DNA of 64,000 nt from an uncultured Bacteroidales bacterium (GTDB taxonomy: Bacteria > Bacteroidota > Bacteroidia > Bacteroidales > P3): positions 1 to 64,000 of the forward strand of contig ONJQ01000005.1 of NCBI GenBank assembly GCA_900318175.1, written 5' to 3'. The position numbers and the translations under genes were made by a program. Below are positions 33,457-42,507 of this stretch, piece by piece (position 1 is the stretch's first letter; each line of letters begins with the position of its first letter). Below the pieces are notes generated by a model. That model was not told where the DNA came from. It worked only from the letters and a program-made list of their open reading frames with translations, and did not search any database.

Positions 33457-33651
33457 ACTTCAAAAAAGATTGGCAGACATAGCGGTAGGGCTGTCGGAGA
33501 ATGGCACAAAAGGGGAAGGATGCTGATGCCGTTCCACACCGTGCAGCACATTGTCCACCAATACGATGCAACACACAGCCTCGCATCGGATACGATGCTC
33601 AGGCCATTATTATATACGGAAAAAACAATATTATTAATAAATACTATCAAC

Positions 33652-35823
33652 ATGAAAAAACTCATTCTTACCCTGACCCTGGCCCTTTTGGTCATGGCTC
33701 CGGCCAGCAGCCGAGCTGACGAGGGCATGTGGCTCCTCTCGCTCATCGGCAAGAACTATGCCGACATGCAGAAGGCCGGCTTCAAACTCTCGCCCGAGGA
33801 CATCTACAGCATCAACCAGAACTGCATCAAGGATGCTATCGTAGGCCTTGGCAATGAGGGCCGCCCGTTCTGGCATTTCTGCACAGGCGAGATTATCAGC
33901 AACAAAGGCCTTATTTCCACCAACCACCACTGCGGCTACGGCAAACTGCAGGAGCACTCGACCGTAGAGCACGACTATCTGCGTGACGGCTTCTGGGCTT
34001 ACAACATGGCGCAGGAACTCCCTAACCCCGGCCTGACGGCTTCAATCCTGATACGCATGGAGGATGTCACCCCGCGCGTGCTGGAGTGTCTGAGCGACGA
34101 CATGAGCGAGGACGACCGCGCCAAGGCTGTCCGCAACGTGAGCCAGCGCATTGCCGAAGAGGCCACCCGCGGCACAGACTATGAGGCTACGGTGAAGCCC
34201 ATGTTCAACGGCAACCAGTACTTCCTCTTTGTCCACATTATTTATAAGGATGTGCGCTTGGTGGGTGCTCCCCCCTCGTCGATGGGCAAATTCGGCGGCG
34301 ACACGGACAACTGGTCTTGGCCCCGCCACACTTGTGATTTCTCCATGTTCCGCATCTACACTGCTCCCGATGGCAAGCCCGCTGCTTACGCCAAGGAGAA
34401 CATCCCCCTGAAGCCCAAGCACCACCTGCCTGTGAGCGCCCGCGAGCTGAAGGACGGCGACTTTGCCATGGTTCTTGGTTTCCCCGGCACGACGGACCAC
34501 TTCCTGACTTCCTACGGCCTGAAGGAGACCATGGAGGTGAGCAACAAGCTGCGCTATGAACTCCGCACCGTGAAAATCAACATCCTCCGCGAGGAGATGG
34601 ACAAAGACCAAGCCATCAAGATTAAGTATGCCTCGAAGTATGCCGGTTGCTCCAACTACTGGAAATACAGCCACGAGCAGAACATCGCCCTGAAGAAACT
34701 GAACACCATGGAGCTGAAGAAAGAGGTGGAGAAGGAGTATTACGATTGGGCACTGGACAAGGACCCGAAATATCGCAATGCCCTCAACCTGATTGAGAAG
34801 AGCTATGCCGACCGCCGCGAGTTGCAGGAGGCCATCACCTACCTCGACGAGGGTTTGCTGGAAGGCCCCGAACTGCTGTACCAAGCCACTATGTTTGGCC
34901 GCTACATCAAGGCTTTCTGCCAAGAGGACAACCCTGACCAGAAGGATGCCCTGCTGGCTGAGCTGCGCGAGGATGCCGCCAAGTTCTACAAGGACTATGA
35001 CGAGGCTGTCGAGCAGCGCGTCATGGCTGCCATGATGGAGTACACCTACCGCAACATCAATGTGAAGTATATCCCCGACTGCCTGAAGACTGCCGACCGC
35101 AAATTCCGCGGCAACTTCACTTCGCTGGTAGCCCATCTGTTCAATGGCTCCATCTTTGCCAACCAGAAAGCCTTTGAGGAGTTCCTGAAGAACCCCACGA
35201 TGAAGAAACTGGAGCGCGACGATATCTATAAGTTCGGCACTGAAATTCTGGACAAATACCGCGAGGTGTACCTCTCCATCCCCAAGGAGAACCGCGACAA
35301 TCTGACCCGCGGCACGCGCGACTTTGTGGACGGAATCCTGCAAATTAACGCTGGCAAGAAACTCCTCTCGCCGGATGCCAACAGCACCATCCGCCTGACT
35401 TACGGCAACGTAAAGGCTTACGAGCCCCGCGACGGTGTTACCTACCACTTCTACACCACGCTTGAGGGTGTGATGCAGAAAGAGGACCCGACGAACACTG
35501 AGTTCATCGTGCCCCAGCGCCTGAAGGACCTCTATGCCGCAAAGGACTACGGCACCTACGCCAATGCCAAGGGCGAGCTGCCCACCTGCTTTATCACCAA
35601 CAATGACATCACTGGCGGTAACAGCGGCTCGCCTGTGCTGGATGCTTACGGCAACCTGATTGGTCTGGCTTTCGACGGCAACGGAGAGGCCATGAGCGGC
35701 GACATCGACTTCGAGGAGAACCTGCAACGCTGCATCTGCTTGGACAGCCGTTACATGCTGTTTGTGATTGACAAGTACGCCAACGCCCAGAACCTGATTG
35801 ACGAGATGGACATCGTGCGTTAA
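33652..35823 (+). CDS. S46 dipeptidyl-peptidase, DPP7-like
   Basis: This 723-residue periplasmic serine exopeptidase releases dipeptides from oligopeptide N-termini, a key step for amino-acid-fermenting Bacteroidota. A signal peptide (MKKLILTLTLALLVMAP) is followed by a chymotrypsin-like fold. The catalytic His is in STNHHCGYG, the Asp in GGDTDNWSWPRH and the Ser in GGNSGSPVLD. The residue that separates S46 specificities is Gly here (LAFDGNGEAMSGDI) and not the Arg of DPP11. This predicts preference for hydrophobic residues at the second position (DPP7 type). I chose the ATG at 33652 because it begins the signal peptide. A strong bidirectional terminator follows. Confidence 0.95.
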   Translation: MKKLILTLTLALLVMAPASSRADEGMWLLSLIGKNYADMQKAGFKLSPEDIYSINQNCIKDAIVGLGNEGRPFWHFCTGEIISNKGLISTNHHCGYGKLQEHSTVEHDYLRDGFWAYNMAQELPNPGLTASILIRMEDVTPRVLECLSDDMSEDDRAKAVRNVSQRIAEEATRGTDYEATVKPMFNGNQYFLFVHIIYKDVRLVGAPPSSMGKFGGDTDNWSWPRHTCDFSMFRIYTAPDGKPAAYAKENIPLKPKHHLPVSARELKDGDFAMVLGFPGTTDHFLTSYGLKETMEVSNKLRYELRTVKINILREEMDKDQAIKIKYASKYAGCSNYWKYSHEQNIALKKLNTMELKKEVEKEYYDWALDKDPKYRNALNLIEKSYADRRELQEAITYLDEGLLEGPELLYQATMFGRYIKAFCQEDNPDQKDALLAELREDAAKFYKDYDEAVEQRVMAAMMEYTYRNINVKYIPDCLKTADRKFRGNFTSLVAHLFNGSIFANQKAFEEFLKNPTMKKLERDDIYKFGTEILDKYREVYLSIPKENRDNLTRGTRDFVDGILQINAGKKLLSPDANSTIRLTYGNVKAYEPRDGVTYHFYTTLEGVMQKEDPTNTEFIVPQRLKDLYAAKDYGTYANAKGELPTCFITNNDITGGNSGSPVLDAYGNLIGLAFDGNGEAMSGDIDFEENLQRCICLDSRYMLFVIDKYANAQNLIDEMDIVR

Positions 35824-37351: not shown

Positions 37352-39826
37352 TTATCGGACCCGGACGCGCATGCCGGATTTGAACTTGGTGACATCGGGG
37401 TTGAGTTCCTTGAGCTTTTGGGTGGTAGTGTAGTTGCGCCGGGCAAGGTCGTCAATGCTTTCGCCTTTGCGCATGGTGGCATAGAGGGGTTTGCCCGAAG
37501 TGCGGGGCGCAGCAACCTCTTCGGGGACGATGCTTTTGTCAGCTTTGTAAACAAGGCTTTCGCCTTTGGTGGGCTTTCGGATGCCGAAGTAGGTTTTGTC
37601 GAGGTAGAGTTTGCGGGTACGGAGGGTGTAGTTGGAGAAATCGAGTATCCACTCGGGGTCGAAGGGTTCGTATTGGAAACGGACTTCGAAATGGAGGTGT
37701 GGCCCGGTGGAGCGGCCGGTGCTGCCGCCAAGCCCGATGACCTGGCCCGCTGCGACGACTTGCATGGGCTTGACGTTGATTTTGGAGAGGTGGCCATAGA
37801 CGGTTTCGAGGCCGTTGTAGTGGCGGACGACGACGAGGTTGCCGTAGGCTCCCATGGGGCGTGCAATGCGGACTACGCCATTGAAGGCGCAGTGGACGGG
37901 TTCGCCCACGCGGAGGCGTATGTCGACCCCGCGGTGGGGACGGTTCCAACGCCATCCGTAAGGTGAGGTGATGATGTTCTTGACAGGGAAGCAGAAACGC
38001 TCGTTGGGCTTGAGAAGGTGGATGGAGATCTCGTCAGGGAGGGAGTCCATGGAGAGGTTGACAAGGCGGACATGGGCACCACTAAGGTTGCTGCCATACC
38101 AGAGGGGCGAGGGCGGCGGGAGGGTGGAGTTGTACATAACGTCGATAAGCTCGTCGCCGGTGGCGAGGGCGGTGTCGATGGCGGTGGGGTCGGGTTCTGG
38201 TTCGTGAATTTCGAGAGCGGGACGCGTGACCTTGCCATTGATAGGTTTGCCCTTCTTGCTGCCCGTTGCTTTCTCGGCACGTGCCTTGGCCTGCCCTTCG
38301 CGGATGCGGGCATTGAGGAGGGAGTCGAAATAGCTCTCTTTCTGCGGTTGCTGGGCGGCAAGCGTCCCGCCGAGAGCAAGGAGGAGTATCAGCATCTTGA
38401 GCTGCCGCCGGAGACGACCCACGGGAATGCCCAGCATTTCGCGGTATTTGGCCACGGTGCGTCGGGCCACGGGGAATCCACGCTGGGTGAGTTGCACGGC
38501 AAGAGCCTCGTCAGAGAGGGGGTTGCGCTTGTCCTCGGAGTCGACAAGGGTTTTGAGTTCGCGCCGGACGGCTTCTGTGGCCACCTGTTGGCCGTCGTCG
38601 GCCACGATGGCTTGGGAGAAACACTCTTTGAGGAGAAATGTACCAAATTCGGTCTGGACGTATTTGCTGTTGACCACACGTGAGACGGTGGAGATGTCGT
38701 AGCCGGTCTGCGCGGCGACATCCTTTTGCAGGAGGGGTTGGAGGTCGGCGGTGTCGCCAGTGAGGAAGAATCGATATTGTTTTTTCAGAATGACGCGCAT
38801 GACGCGCAGCAGGCTGGTATGGCGCTGCTGAAGGGTGTCGACAAGGAGGTCGGCACTGTCGAAATTGTTGCGGAGAAAGTCGAGAGCCTCCTGCTCTGAG
38901 GGCGAGGGTTTGCGGATGTGTTGAAGTTCCTGTAGCATGTCGTGGTAGTCCTGACTCTTCTGCAGCTGGGGGAGGTAGCGGTCGTTGAGGGTGAGGGTGA
39001 GCTGGTCGTCATGACGGGTGACGATGAAGTCCGGCACGATGTAGCGGGCATGGGAGGTGTCAACGTCGCCGGTGCCGGGCTTGGGGTTGAGGCGGCGGAT
39101 GCGAGCTATGGCAGCATCCACTTGTTCCTCGGTGAGGTTGAGCTGCTCCATGACACGGCGGTAGTTATGTGCGGCAAAGGCTTCGAAGCAGTTGTCCACA
39201 ATGGCTGTTGCCCAGCGGATGTCGTCGGTCTGTTCAGCAGAGCGATGCAACTGGATGGATAGGCACTCCTGCAGATTGCGAGCGGCTATGCCTGGGGGGT
39301 CCATCTGCTGGATGATGTGGAGCACCTCCTCCACCTCGTCGGGGTTGACTTCGATGCCCTGAGTGAAGGCGAGGTCGTTGGCAATGAGGTCAAGGCTGCG
39401 GCCTACGTAGCCGGCATCGTCGAGGCTGCCCACTATTTCCTGTGCTATGTCGTATTGGCGGGGAGTGAGGGCGCGCATGGAGAGTTGTCCCATGAGATGG
39501 TCAAAGTAGGAGTCCTCCGAAACGAAGACAGTCTCGTGGGCGTCCTGGTTCTTGTCCCGTTCCTGTCGTTCGCGGTAGCTGTAGTCATCGTCGTCAGTGT
39601 CTATGCTCATCAAGTCGTAGCCCTCGTTGCCACTTTCGGGCAGGGGTTCCATCACGTCGCTGGCAGCAGAGGAGACTTCCAAGACGGGGTTTTTCTCGAC
39701 CTCCTCTTTTAGACGCTGCTCCAACTCGGTGACAGGCATCTGGATGAGCTGCAGAAGTAGCAGTTGTTGCGGCGACAGTTTCTGCTGCATCTTCATGGTC
39801 TGATGTTGTCCGCTCTTCATAGGCAT
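37352..39826 (-). CDS. rpoN: In-frame fusion: sigma-54 (RpoN) plus exported M23/LysM peptidase
   Basis: A single open frame of 824 codons joins two normally separate proteins. Residues 1-477 are a complete sigma-54: the Gln-rich activator region (KLSPQQLLLLQLIQMP), the core-binding region, a helix-turn-helix (TGYDISTVSRVVNSKYV) and a perfect RpoN box ARRTVAKYRE, ending LGIPVGRLRRQL as free RpoN proteins do. After one Lys comes MLILLLALGGTLAAQQ, a signal peptide, at 38395. Then follow a linker, an M23 domain (HRGVDIRLRVG, GPHLHFEV) and a C-terminal LysM-like repeat. A cytoplasmic sigma factor and a periplasmic endopeptidase should not work as one chain. The peptidase may be made from the internal ATG, or the stop was lost by one substitution (TAG to AAG would do). 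An ATG at 39820 is an alternative start. Confidence 0.85.
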   Translation of the reverse strand: MPMKSGQHQTMKMQQKLSPQQLLLLQLIQMPVTELEQRLKEEVEKNPVLEVSSAASDVMEPLPESGNEGYDLMSIDTDDDDYSYRERQERDKNQDAHETVFVSEDSYFDHLMGQLSMRALTPRQYDIAQEIVGSLDDAGYVGRSLDLIANDLAFTQGIEVNPDEVEEVLHIIQQMDPPGIAARNLQECLSIQLHRSAEQTDDIRWATAIVDNCFEAFAAHNYRRVMEQLNLTEEQVDAAIARIRRLNPKPGTGDVDTSHARYIVPDFIVTRHDDQLTLTLNDRYLPQLQKSQDYHDMLQELQHIRKPSPSEQEALDFLRNNFDSADLLVDTLQQRHTSLLRVMRVILKKQYRFFLTGDTADLQPLLQKDVAAQTGYDISTVSRVVNSKYVQTEFGTFLLKECFSQAIVADDGQQVATEAVRRELKTLVDSEDKRNPLSDEALAVQLTQRGFPVARRTVAKYREMLGIPVGRLRRQLKMLILLLALGGTLAAQQPQKESYFDSLLNARIREGQAKARAEKATGSKKGKPINGKVTRPALEIHEPEPDPTAIDTALATGDELIDVMYNSTLPPPSPLWYGSNLSGAHVRLVNLSMDSLPDEISIHLLKPNERFCFPVKNIITSPYGWRWNRPHRGVDIRLRVGEPVHCAFNGVVRIARPMGAYGNLVVVRHYNGLETVYGHLSKINVKPMQVVAAGQVIGLGGSTGRSTGPHLHFEVRFQYEPFDPEWILDFSNYTLRTRKLYLDKTYFGIRKPTKGESLVYKADKSIVPEEVAAPRTSGKPLYATMRKGESIDDLARRNYTTTQKLKELNPDVTKFKSGMRVRVR

Positions 39827-39926: not shown

Positions 39927-41372
39927 CTAATTGTCGAAAATATTATCCCCGGCACCAAAAAATTTATCCTCGAAGTTGAGGAGATAGACCTTGCCCGTGG
40001 CACGGGTGACGGCGGTGTAAAGCCAACGGAGATACTCGCGGTCTATCATTTCGTCGGTCAAGTAGCCTTGGTCAATAATGGCCGTGCGCCATTGCCCACC
40101 CTGTGTTTTATGGCAGGTGAGGGCGTAGGAAAACTTCACCTGCAAAGCGTTGAAATAGGGATTCTGCTTGACGGCTTTCAGTCGGTCGGCCTTGTAGGGC
40201 ATGTCGGCATAGTCCTCCATCACGGCCTCGAACAGCTGCTGCGACTCCTGATAGGTGAGCGAGGGCGACTCGCTGTGCAAGGTCTCCAAGAGGAGTTTGC
40301 AATCCTGGGCTGGCATGTCGGGGTAGTCGACAAAACGGAGAGTGGCATCCACGAAGTGGAAACCGTACAATTCCTGATGGTTGCGGAGGCTCTGCACCTC
40401 TACGATGTCGCCGTTGGCAATGAAGCCTATCCCGCTTTCGGGCTCCAACCAGTAGTAATTGTTCTTGACCACCATGAGATAGTCGCCCGCGTTGACCTCC
40501 TCCTCGCGGTAGAGTATCCGGTTGCGGATTTCCTGGTTAAAGAGGTTGGCGCGCTTGTTGCTGCGCGTGATGATGGCCACCTGCTCAAGGCTGTCCTCGT
40601 CATACTCACGGTTCAGCACCTCCTCCAGCTCGGCTCCTGGCAGCCTCACCACGTCGTCGCAGTCTTCAAGGTCAAAAAGCGGCAGACTGGGAACCCCTCC
40701 ATCCTCCAATTCGGCTATCTGGCGGCGCAGCAATGTGGCATTGAGCAGGATTCCCGAAAGGCTCCTCTGACGAACCACTTCCGTCAATTCGGCACAATGC
40801 ACCGTGAGGCAAAGCACGGAGCGAAGATACTCCACATCCAGCGCAGGGCTCTGCGTGGAACCCACTGGAGGCAGCTGTGCCGTGTCGCCAATCAGCATCA
40901 GACGGCAGTGGTTCCCCTCGCCCACATAGTCCACCAAGTCCTCCAGCAGGTTGTGGCGGTCGGAGCCTCCCTCATCATTCTGGCCTATCATCGAGGCCTC
41001 GTCGACGATGAAGAGGGTGTAGGAATGTTTATTCAGCGCCCTTGCCATACGCATCATGCCTGTGCTGTCCGTGACGGTCTGGTAAATCTTGCGGTGTATG
41101 GTGAAGGCGGGGTTTCCAGAATATCCAGCCAGCACCTTGGCTGCACGTCCCGTGGGGGCCAGCAGCAATGTTTTTATACGCAAGGCCGATGCCGAACGGA
41201 CCAACGCACTGACCAGCGAGGTCTTTCCCGTACCCGCATAACCACGCAACACGAAAGCCGACGCGGGGTCCGGGTCATAGAGGAAGCGCACCATCTCTCT
41301 GCAAGCCTGCTCCTGCATGGACGTGGGCTGGTGGGGGAAGTGTGACAAGATGAAACGGACAACCTTTTCCAT
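39927..41372 (-). CDS. RecD-like superfamily 1 DNA helicase
   Basis: The 481-residue ATPase has Walker A RGYAGTGKTSLVSAL near residue 45, Walker B LFIVDEASMIG near 120, a Q-loop region GDTAQLPPVGS, and a C-terminal UvrD_C_2-type motif ALTCHKTQGGQW with YTAVTRATGKVYLL. It resembles the short single-subunit RecD2/Dda-like helicases common in Bacteroidota, which unwind DNA 5'-3'. The long N-terminal domains of RecD2 are absent. It sits upstream of the rpoN fusion with a 100-base gap. Confidence 0.88.
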   Translation of the reverse strand: MEKVVRFILSHFPHQPTSMQEQACREMVRFLYDPDPASAFVLRGYAGTGKTSLVSALVRSASALRIKTLLLAPTGRAAKVLAGYSGNPAFTIHRKIYQTVTDSTGMMRMARALNKHSYTLFIVDEASMIGQNDEGGSDRHNLLEDLVDYVGEGNHCRLMLIGDTAQLPPVGSTQSPALDVEYLRSVLCLTVHCAELTEVVRQRSLSGILLNATLLRRQIAELEDGGVPSLPLFDLEDCDDVVRLPGAELEEVLNREYDEDSLEQVAIITRSNKRANLFNQEIRNRILYREEEVNAGDYLMVVKNNYYWLEPESGIGFIANGDIVEVQSLRNHQELYGFHFVDATLRFVDYPDMPAQDCKLLLETLHSESPSLTYQESQQLFEAVMEDYADMPYKADRLKAVKQNPYFNALQVKFSYALTCHKTQGGQWRTAIIDQGYLTDEMIDREYLRWLYTAVTRATGKVYLLNFEDKFFGAGDNIFDN

Positions 41373-41447
41373 ATCTCAATTGTGGGGATAACAAAAGGGA
41401 GGTTCGCCTTCATGGACGAATCTCCCCTTATTGTTCTATGCGGCGCA

Positions 41448-41810
41448 TTACTCAGCCTCGGGGGCAGGGGCAGCCTCAACAGGGGCAGCCTCGGCGGCGG
41501 CGGTAGCAGCTGCGGGAGCGGCAACAGGAGTCAGGCTCTTGGCAGCGCTGGCATCAACTTCGGTGTTGATGGCCGATTCGGCACTATGGCGAGGAATGGC
41601 AGTAGTGGCAGCCAACGAAAGGACTACCAATGCGATGGCCAGACCCCAGGTAATCTTCTCGATAGTCTCGGTGGTCTTGCGGACACCCAGCACCTGGTTG
41701 GGAGCAGAGAAGTTAGCGGCCAGTCCGCCACCCTTCGAGTTTTGCACTAATACGGCAAGCGCCAATGCGATACATACAATCAGAATGAGGATAACAATAA
41801 AGGTGTACAT
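41448..41810 (-). CDS. secG: Protein translocase subunit SecG
   Basis: The 120-residue inner-membrane protein assists SecYEG translocation. Two membrane spans (IVILILIVCIALALAVLV and TWGLAIALVVLSLAATT) flank the conserved loop VQNSKGGGLAANFSAPNQVLG. The C-terminus is an Ala/Pro/Glu-rich tail, common in Bacteroidota SecG. It is probably co-transcribed with the upstream 223-residue helical protein gene, separated by 25 bases. Confidence 0.93.
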   Translation of the reverse strand: MYTFIVILILIVCIALALAVLVQNSKGGGLAANFSAPNQVLGVRKTTETIEKITWGLAIALVVLSLAATTAIPRHSAESAINTEVDASAAKSLTPVAAPAAATAAAEAAPVEAAPAPEAE

Positions 41811-41835
41811 CGTTTGTTGTTGTTATTATTTATTA

Positions 41836-42507
41836 TTACTTTTTTAATTCGTCTAAATGCTTTTTCAAGTCGGCAATTCGAACTGCAAAAGTACTACTTT
41901 TTTCGGGATTTTTGACCATTAATTTTTCATACATCTCCAAAGCCTGCTGAAACTTCCCCTGTTTTTCAAGTATAACAGCAAGAGTCTCAGACTCGAAGGC
42001 AGTTGATGGCCGAACGCTATTTTTGGCAAGTTCTTGCACAGAAATGTTGTCGAACGACTCGAAATCTGGCACAATTCCACCGTCTTTTTCTAAAAAAATG
42101 GACAGAATCACACTCTTCGGAGCCGTCTTGAACGACACATCCTGATAGGCATTAATCTCTTGCAGGATGTCAAAGTCGCCATCCGGTTGCTGCACCTTGG
42201 GCGCTGGGGGAACAGGAGCGGGCTCGATGACGGGTTTCACACCGGAAGGCTCCGGACGTGTTGTGGGTCGCGCAAGAGTCTCCATCTGCTCATACAATCT
42301 GTCCGCATCCTGCACATATAGCGTCACCACGGGCAGGGTCTGCTTCTCCCACAGCGGGGCTCCAGCGGCCTTGTCGGCCAACAGTGACACCACCTGCAGG
42401 GGGGCACAATAGGGATAGCGGTCCCGCTCACGGTGCAACTCCTCCCACTCGTCGGGGCTGAGCGTGCCGGGATGGCCCATCATCTTGCCGAAACTGTTTT
42501 TATCCAT
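41836..42507 (-). CDS. TPR-like cytoplasmic protein upstream of secG
   Basis: The 223-residue protein has a helical N-terminus (DEWEELHRERDRYPYCAPLQ), a Pro-rich linker (about residues 85-115) and a C-terminal helical pair resembling a tetratricopeptide unit (FESETLAVILEKQGKFQQAL, EMYEKLMVKNPEKSSTFA). There is no signal peptide. Similar proteins sit next to secG in other Bacteroidota, but I know of no assigned function. A good promoter lies 37 bases upstream. Confidence 0.75.
   Translation of the reverse strand: MDKNSFGKMMGHPGTLSPDEWEELHRERDRYPYCAPLQVVSLLADKAAGAPLWEKQTLPVVTLYVQDADRLYEQMETLARPTTRPEPSGVKPVIEPAPVPPAPKVQQPDGDFDILQEINAYQDVSFKTAPKSVILSIFLEKDGGIVPDFESFDNISVQELAKNSVRPSTAFESETLAVILEKQGKFQQALEMYEKLMVKNPEKSSTFAVRIADLKKHLDELKK

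Follow-up and report, generated by a model that had tools for sequence, protein, structure and literature searches.

FbcH of Bradyrhizobium is a cytochrome b/c1 polyprotein that is cut at an internal signal sequence. Sigma factors that are bound to the membrane have likewise been described, namely pro-sigma-K and pro-sigma-E of Bacillus and the ECF proteins in which a sigma and an anti-sigma part form a single chain. Here we describe a gene in which one minus-strand frame encodes a complete sigma-54, a predicted export signal and an M23 endopeptidase (Table 1). It would resemble FbcH in being one chain that is cut inside by signal peptidase, and the pro-sigma and ECF proteins in having a covalent extension that may hold a sigma factor at the membrane.

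Table 1. Features of the fused gene and its surroundings, with positions in the window
Feature	Position	Strand	Basis
Whole fused gene rpoN-signal peptide-M23, 824 aa (824 codons)	37352..39826	minus	one open frame
Complete sigma-54, residues 1-476	38399..39826	minus	Pfam AID, CBD, DBD; TIGR02395; solved chains
RpoN box ARRTVAKYR, residues 454-462	38441..38467	minus	read in translation
RLRR (471-474), end of sigma-54 and presumed basic n-region	38405..38416	minus	sequence of join
Hydrophobic segment 478-491, predicted signal peptidase I site between A491 and Q492	38354..38395	minus	motif and hydropathy
Peptidase M23 domain, residues 630-724, with HxGxD and HLHFE zinc motifs	37655..37939	minus	Pfam, 108 bits
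Divergent LysM-like end	37400..37471	minus	LysM E 0.0062, 16.9 bits, below cut-off 20.9
SecG subunit of Sec translocase, two genes upstream (context only)	41448..41810	minus	Pfam SecG, 63.5 bits

A sigma-54/M23 fusion in one genus and beyond

The window, by which we mean the whole stretch of 64,000 nucleotides that was analysed, belongs to a contig of 108 kb, one of the 70 that make up a 2.9 Mb genome. The three sigma-54 regions of the fused protein were all recognized by Pfam above the cut-offs, with Sigma54_AID at residues 7-51 (46.3 bits versus 23.8), Sigma54_CBD at residues 99-294 (190 versus 22.9) and Sigma54_DBD at residues 317-475 (161 versus 22.8). TIGR02395 matches the same half at 392.5 bits (cut-off 277.35), and the matches to the other NCBIfam sigma-54 models listed lie below their cut-offs. 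The alignment to solved sigma-54 chains such as 7qv9 extends to query residue 476, which corresponds to residue 476 of 477 in the solved chain, and the join therefore coincides with the natural end of sigma-54. As the first-pass annotation had stated, codon 477 (38398-38396) encodes Lys (AAG) and is followed by ATG at 38395-38393. The view that a complete RpoN with its RpoN box is fused in frame at its natural end is thus confirmed by the frame, the Pfam domains, the box itself and a total of 86 distinct fused frames. The pattern ARRT[VI][AS][KN]YR occurs in 84 of these frames, and the remaining two are each one letter off.

The Pfam match to Peptidase_M23 is also above its cut-off and covers the HxxxD and HxH zinc ligands; the zinc motifs HxGxD and HxHFE are intact in each of the 86 fused frames. 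Of the M23/LysM part that had been annotated, the peptidase stands, but the 'LysM repeat' of the window is reduced to one divergent copy below the cut-off. The fused protein of G204, a genome of another genus, has a LysM match above the cut-off (37.8 bits). In 38 of the 86 fused proteins at most 75 residues follow HLHFE, so that the LysM-like end is probably missing there.

The fusion was found in 85 of 120 genomes of the gut Bacteroidales genus Ca. Colimorpha/UBA1711, so that over 80 species retain it, and in G204. The genus appears to include records under the names UBA1711 and Candidatus Colimorpha merdihippi, and the consulted part of PMC8957277 assigns the latter to GTDB genus UBA1711 (family P3, Bacteroidales). 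Of 145 distinct sigma-54 rows that we read, 82 were fused and 63 unfused, and four more fused ones were added later. A tally of 104 of the genus genomes gave 77 with the fusion, 26 with a separate M23 and one without M23 nearby, after which five fused genomes and one unfused were added. Three more (G085, G087 and G109) were counted as fused and presumably correspond to the loci read as L086, L085 and L084, to judge from equal frame lengths. Outside the tally stand seven genomes, namely G082, G125 and G137, which were not read, and G003, G032, G067 and G148, in which no sigma-54 DNA-binding domain was found among the matches listed. The same fusion is thus present in relatives, where it had been proposed to look for it. 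A stop at the join in relatives had been regarded as a sign of separate genes; 28 of the 110 genus genomes read are indeed unfused, but the 85 genomes with the fusion have no stop at this place.

Frame lengths give the same picture: among the best approximately 150 matches to PF04552, many genus genomes have frames of about 740-900 aa, versus about 470-640 aa or fragments in nearly all others, the exception outside the genus being the 836 aa frame of G204. No further fusion was found among the best approximately 150 matches listed for 295 genomes of the order, nor in the phylum set of 395 genomes among the matches at E 1e-160, which come from 8 genomes. G204 itself is outside the matches at E 1e-165, and diverged fusions could be missed. 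Three genomes (G165, G185 and G191) that first seemed fused have a stop between the two genes. The PF04552 search revealed no second sigma-54, among the matches listed, in any of the 85 fused genus genomes.

That the fusion arose in sequencing or assembly, or that the gene is decaying, we consider next to impossible. Its carriers do seem to be metagenome assemblies, but the same join recurs in 86 distinct frames, taken from records of several different sources and with both halves intact, and its occurrence across the genus and in G204 excludes a sequencing error; the relatives refute this explanation. The literature searched, including the consulted parts of PMC12316311, PMC7406223, PMC9249621 and PMC8957277, contains no report of a sigma-54/M23 fusion. 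The fusion is real, conserved and undescribed in that literature, and represents a new architecture of two known families.

Upstream of the fused gene and on the same strand, positions 39927-42507 of the window encode a TPR-like protein (below the Pfam cut-offs), SecG and a RecD/PIF1-like helicase, which possibly form one transcription unit with it. The position of SecG is suggestive, but no more. The region 33520-35823 resembles, by eye only, an exported S46-type dipeptidyl peptidase.

The join and the predicted export signal

Past RLRR or its equivalent, the motif [AGS]Q is found after 14-29 residues (median 17) in all 86 fused frames, a number to be read with the fact that the search required the motif. 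Position -1 of the predicted signal peptidase I cut is A in 83 of the 86, and at -3 the commonest residue is Leu (36 of the 86), which is not a small residue. The 15-residue stretch after RLRR has a mean hydropathy of 2.05 in the frame used versus −0.06 and −0.43 in the other two frames. Judged by motif and hydropathy only, the segment therefore has the basic n-region, the hydrophobic core and the small residue at -1 of a Sec signal peptide. The core is somewhat less hydrophobic in the fused proteins than in the best stretch before the unfused M23 (medians of 2.19, n = 86, and 2.33, n = 35; p = 0.006).

Fused and unfused sigma-54 also differ in charge. In the two places after RLR[RK], D or E is present in 48 of 59 unfused sequences (63 rows, of which four had no anchor match) versus one of 86 fused ones, and the first 12 residues after RLRR include an acidic residue in only one of the 86. 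The Leu at the second place after RLR[RK] is nevertheless kept in at least 57 of the 86 fused sequences (counted over the ten commonest pairs). The end of sigma-54 thus appears to be retained, but without the acidic charge, which would interfere with a signal sequence. Since the acidic residue is absent and the hydrophobic stretch directly follows RLRR, the end of sigma-54 presumably also supplies the basic residues with which the signal peptide starts. Nothing else points as strongly as this charge loss to insertion of the chain in one piece, although it could partly reflect where the join happened to fall.

Two further explanations of the join were discarded. Slippery heptamers as needed for a programmed frameshift occur near 5 of the 86 joins, which is about the background of 0.05 per equal window. 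Nor did synonymous sites point to a hidden start or RNA element at the join: over codons -13 to 0 they showed no excess conservation in either of two clades, one of 19 rows (z = −0.59, 6 usable codons) and one of 33 (z = −1.74, 10 usable codons), although these are few codons.

The latter result also bears on the idea that translation starts internally near the end of rpoN, at an ATG or GTG around GIPV-ARLRR, which would give an M23 with a normal short signal peptide and would reduce the long chain to a by-product, its extension being tolerated or else trimmed off. We consider this rather unlikely as a full account. Possible starts are certainly at hand: in the window, ATG codons lie in frame at -11 and +3, an ATG is located within -12 to +5 in 47 of the 86 frames and some ATG, GTG or TTG within -25 to +5 in 85, while GTG is mildly enriched at -6 (48 of 67 Val codons versus a background of 58%; p = 0.015). 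Moreover, the M23 of unfused relatives starts at or near the rpoN stop, as seen in 25 unfused loci with a same-strand M23 within 400 bases. However, no start is conserved. ATG is commonest at -11 (23 of 86) and next at -10, +2 and +3 (9 each), 39 of the 86 frames have none within -12 to +5, synonymous conservation at the join shows no excess in either clade, and the full sigma-54 chain always bears the extension because the stop is absent. The internal ATG at 38395, which had been suggested as a start, is not conserved either, as an ATG stands at +3 after RLRR in those 9 frames only and 56 of the 86 lack one from -6 to +5. An extra internal start for M23 alongside the polyprotein is nonetheless possible.

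A second alternative is a two-faced membrane protein that is never cleaved, the segment being a permanent anchor that ties a periplasmic M23 sensor or enzyme to sigma-54. The orientation and hydrophobicity of the segment are compatible with this, but the stretch to [AGS]Q is short, A is almost invariable at -1, and most unfused homologues have a similar stretch ending near Q (in most of the 25 unfused loci M23 begins with a basic stretch and a hydrophobic core, with Q soon after), which together make it quite improbable.

Unfused relatives and the origin of the fusion

The unfused loci indicate what the fusion was made from. Among the 25 tight pairs, rpoN and M23 overlap by ATGA in five (L102, L105, L126, L161 and L187), and such tight pairs are present in several genera. 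The precursor was therefore likely an rpoN closely trailed by an M23 gene with its own start and signal peptide. Stop-codon readthrough in the unfused relatives was considered and rejected, as M23 is in the rpoN frame in 9 of the 25 tight pairs, close to the one in three that chance would give, and the stretches between the two genes are dissimilar by eye. In one unfused locus (L112) the sigma-54 match ends early, at query residue 395, possibly due to an assembly frameshift.

The fusion seems to have arisen at least twice. A quick tree of sigma-54 requires four changes of the fused label, two of which are forced by starred branches. A single clade of the 81 fused genus rows was not rejected (p-AU = 0.317), whereas a clade of these rows together with that of G204 (L189) was (p-AU = 3.3e-5). 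In the free tree several fused rows (for example L029 and L080) stand apart and the unfused row L051 falls inside, so that the data neither establish nor reject a single origin for the genus. The gene order in G204 is asnS-[rpoN-M23]-ribH-fmt, and in its unfused sister G196 it is asnS-rpoN-X-M23-ribH-fmt (asnS, ribH and fmt were named by eye in both). X (L190:3352-3978) encodes 208 aa, is multi-span by eye and has no Pfam match. Given the same neighbours in both genomes and the missing X, G204 seems to have become fused after losing X. Gaps of about 0.7-1.3 kb between rpoN and M23 are present in other unfused loci too.

Sigma-54 promoters and a possible tie to protein export

An activator domain (PF00158, E ≤ 1e-30) was detected in 110 of the 120 genus genomes; seven of the ten without one at this threshold carry the fusion, and those are 64-92% complete. 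The genome of the window has one clear sigma-54 activator, with GAFTGA and a Fis-type HTH. This activator, at L200:8607-10193, is located directly behind a primase-like gene and has no receiver domain in Pfam. A genome-wide scan for -24/-12 sites yielded 19 sites, versus 2 for the reversed pattern. Because 16 of the 19 are inside open frames of at least 150 codons, the dnaK site alone was taken further; it lies 69 bases before dnaK (G000:C64:18749-18764, L230). Another intergenic site precedes a small heat-shock-like protein (L224, named by eye). Of 59 genomes searched, 40 had a match and 30 returned loci, and in all 30 (24 fused, 6 unfused) the best forward site upstream of dnaK has the form TGGCA[CT]-N5-TTG, versus none of the 30 for the best reverse-strand site; these genomes are related and do not count as 30 independent cases. 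In the consulted part of PMC12316311, chaperone genes of Bacteroidota belong to the predicted sigma-54-linked set, and GrpE and GroES of B. thetaiotaomicron are called sigma-54-dependent. To judge from these sites, the fused sigma-54, the only one found, seems to remain in use at -24/-12 promoters, that of dnaK among them.

The first-pass annotation had argued that a single chain would need cleavage or membrane anchoring of the sigma factor, and with an in-frame fusion at the end of sigma-54 this was right; the link between envelope state and transcription that it also raised is conjectural. On the sequence evidence, the product is probably a polyprotein: signal peptidase I would split off M23, and the sigma-54 part would keep a tail embedded in the membrane. 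Sigma-54 would be synthesised first as part of the single chain. Once out of the ribosome, the hydrophobic segment past RLRR would act as an internal Sec signal sequence in an N-in orientation, with RLRR as its n-region. The chain would then be threaded through the inner membrane, and a cut between A and Q would set free a periplasmic M23 endopeptidase. Sigma-54 would remain on the cytoplasmic side, tethered to the membrane by its hydrophobic C-terminal tail until removal of the tail, if any, and could still act with the conserved activator protein at -24/-12 promoters, including the one before dnaK. Points that weigh against this reading are the possible internal starts, the slightly lower hydrophobicity of the segment, the fused genomes in which no activator was detected at the threshold and the 28 genus genomes that manage without a fusion.

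A reading that overlaps with this polyprotein holds that export and cleavage do take place but that the tail of sigma-54 is quickly removed and has no regulatory meaning, the fusion having become fixed since packed genes merge at no cost. This may well be so, although we would put it at somewhat below an even chance. It fits the tight gene pair in several genera as precursor, and the retention of the same dnaK promoter in the unfused genus members (6 of 6). Against it speak the fact that fusion occurred a second time, apparently once a gene between the two had been lost, and the long retention of two intact halves, although neither proves a benefit. At the other extreme, the polyprotein might serve as a secretion monitor: a sigma-54 made with a working export signal would be drawn to the membrane and kept at it, whereas Sec or folding stress would leave the precursor soluble, or its tail would be cut off, and dnaK and other chaperone genes would be turned on. 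We offer this tentatively and think it doubtful; if true, export capacity would set chaperone transcription via one covalent chain.

Irrespective of such a role, the absence of a stop at the join means that every complete sigma-54 chain carries the predicted export signal. The only detected sigma-54 of the fused species may therefore be a membrane-tethered transcription factor, and making it may be physically tied to protein export. The fusion makes it directly testable whether export controls transcription via one polypeptide.

Compared with the families that it joins, the fused protein shares all three regions and the box of the RpoN/sigma-54 family (PF00309, PF04963, PF04552; TIGR02395), and its genome also encodes an activator with the GAFTGA motif and contains -24/-12 sites. 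In unfused relatives, however, sigma-54 stops soon after RLR[RK], whereas the fused chain continues into the export signal and the enzyme. With M23 murein endopeptidases of the DipM, MepM and ShyA type it has the domain and zinc motifs in common, the NCBIfam matches to these types all being below their cut-offs. The M23 of the relatives is a separate gene with a signal-peptide-like start, while the fused M23 has no preceding stop and no conserved start of its own. We know of no earlier sigma-54 that is physically joined to an exported enzyme, and this one would be the first. Both parts of FbcH are membrane-bound cytochromes, whereas here one part is a transcription factor. The pro-sigma factors and the sigma/anti-sigma ECF proteins belong to the sigma-70 family and are extended by a pro-sequence or an anti-sigma domain. 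By contrast, Pfam and NCBIfam detected sigma-54 and M23 domains only in the fused protein, without any sigma-70-type or anti-sigma domain, and its extension is an exported enzyme behind a predicted cleavable signal.
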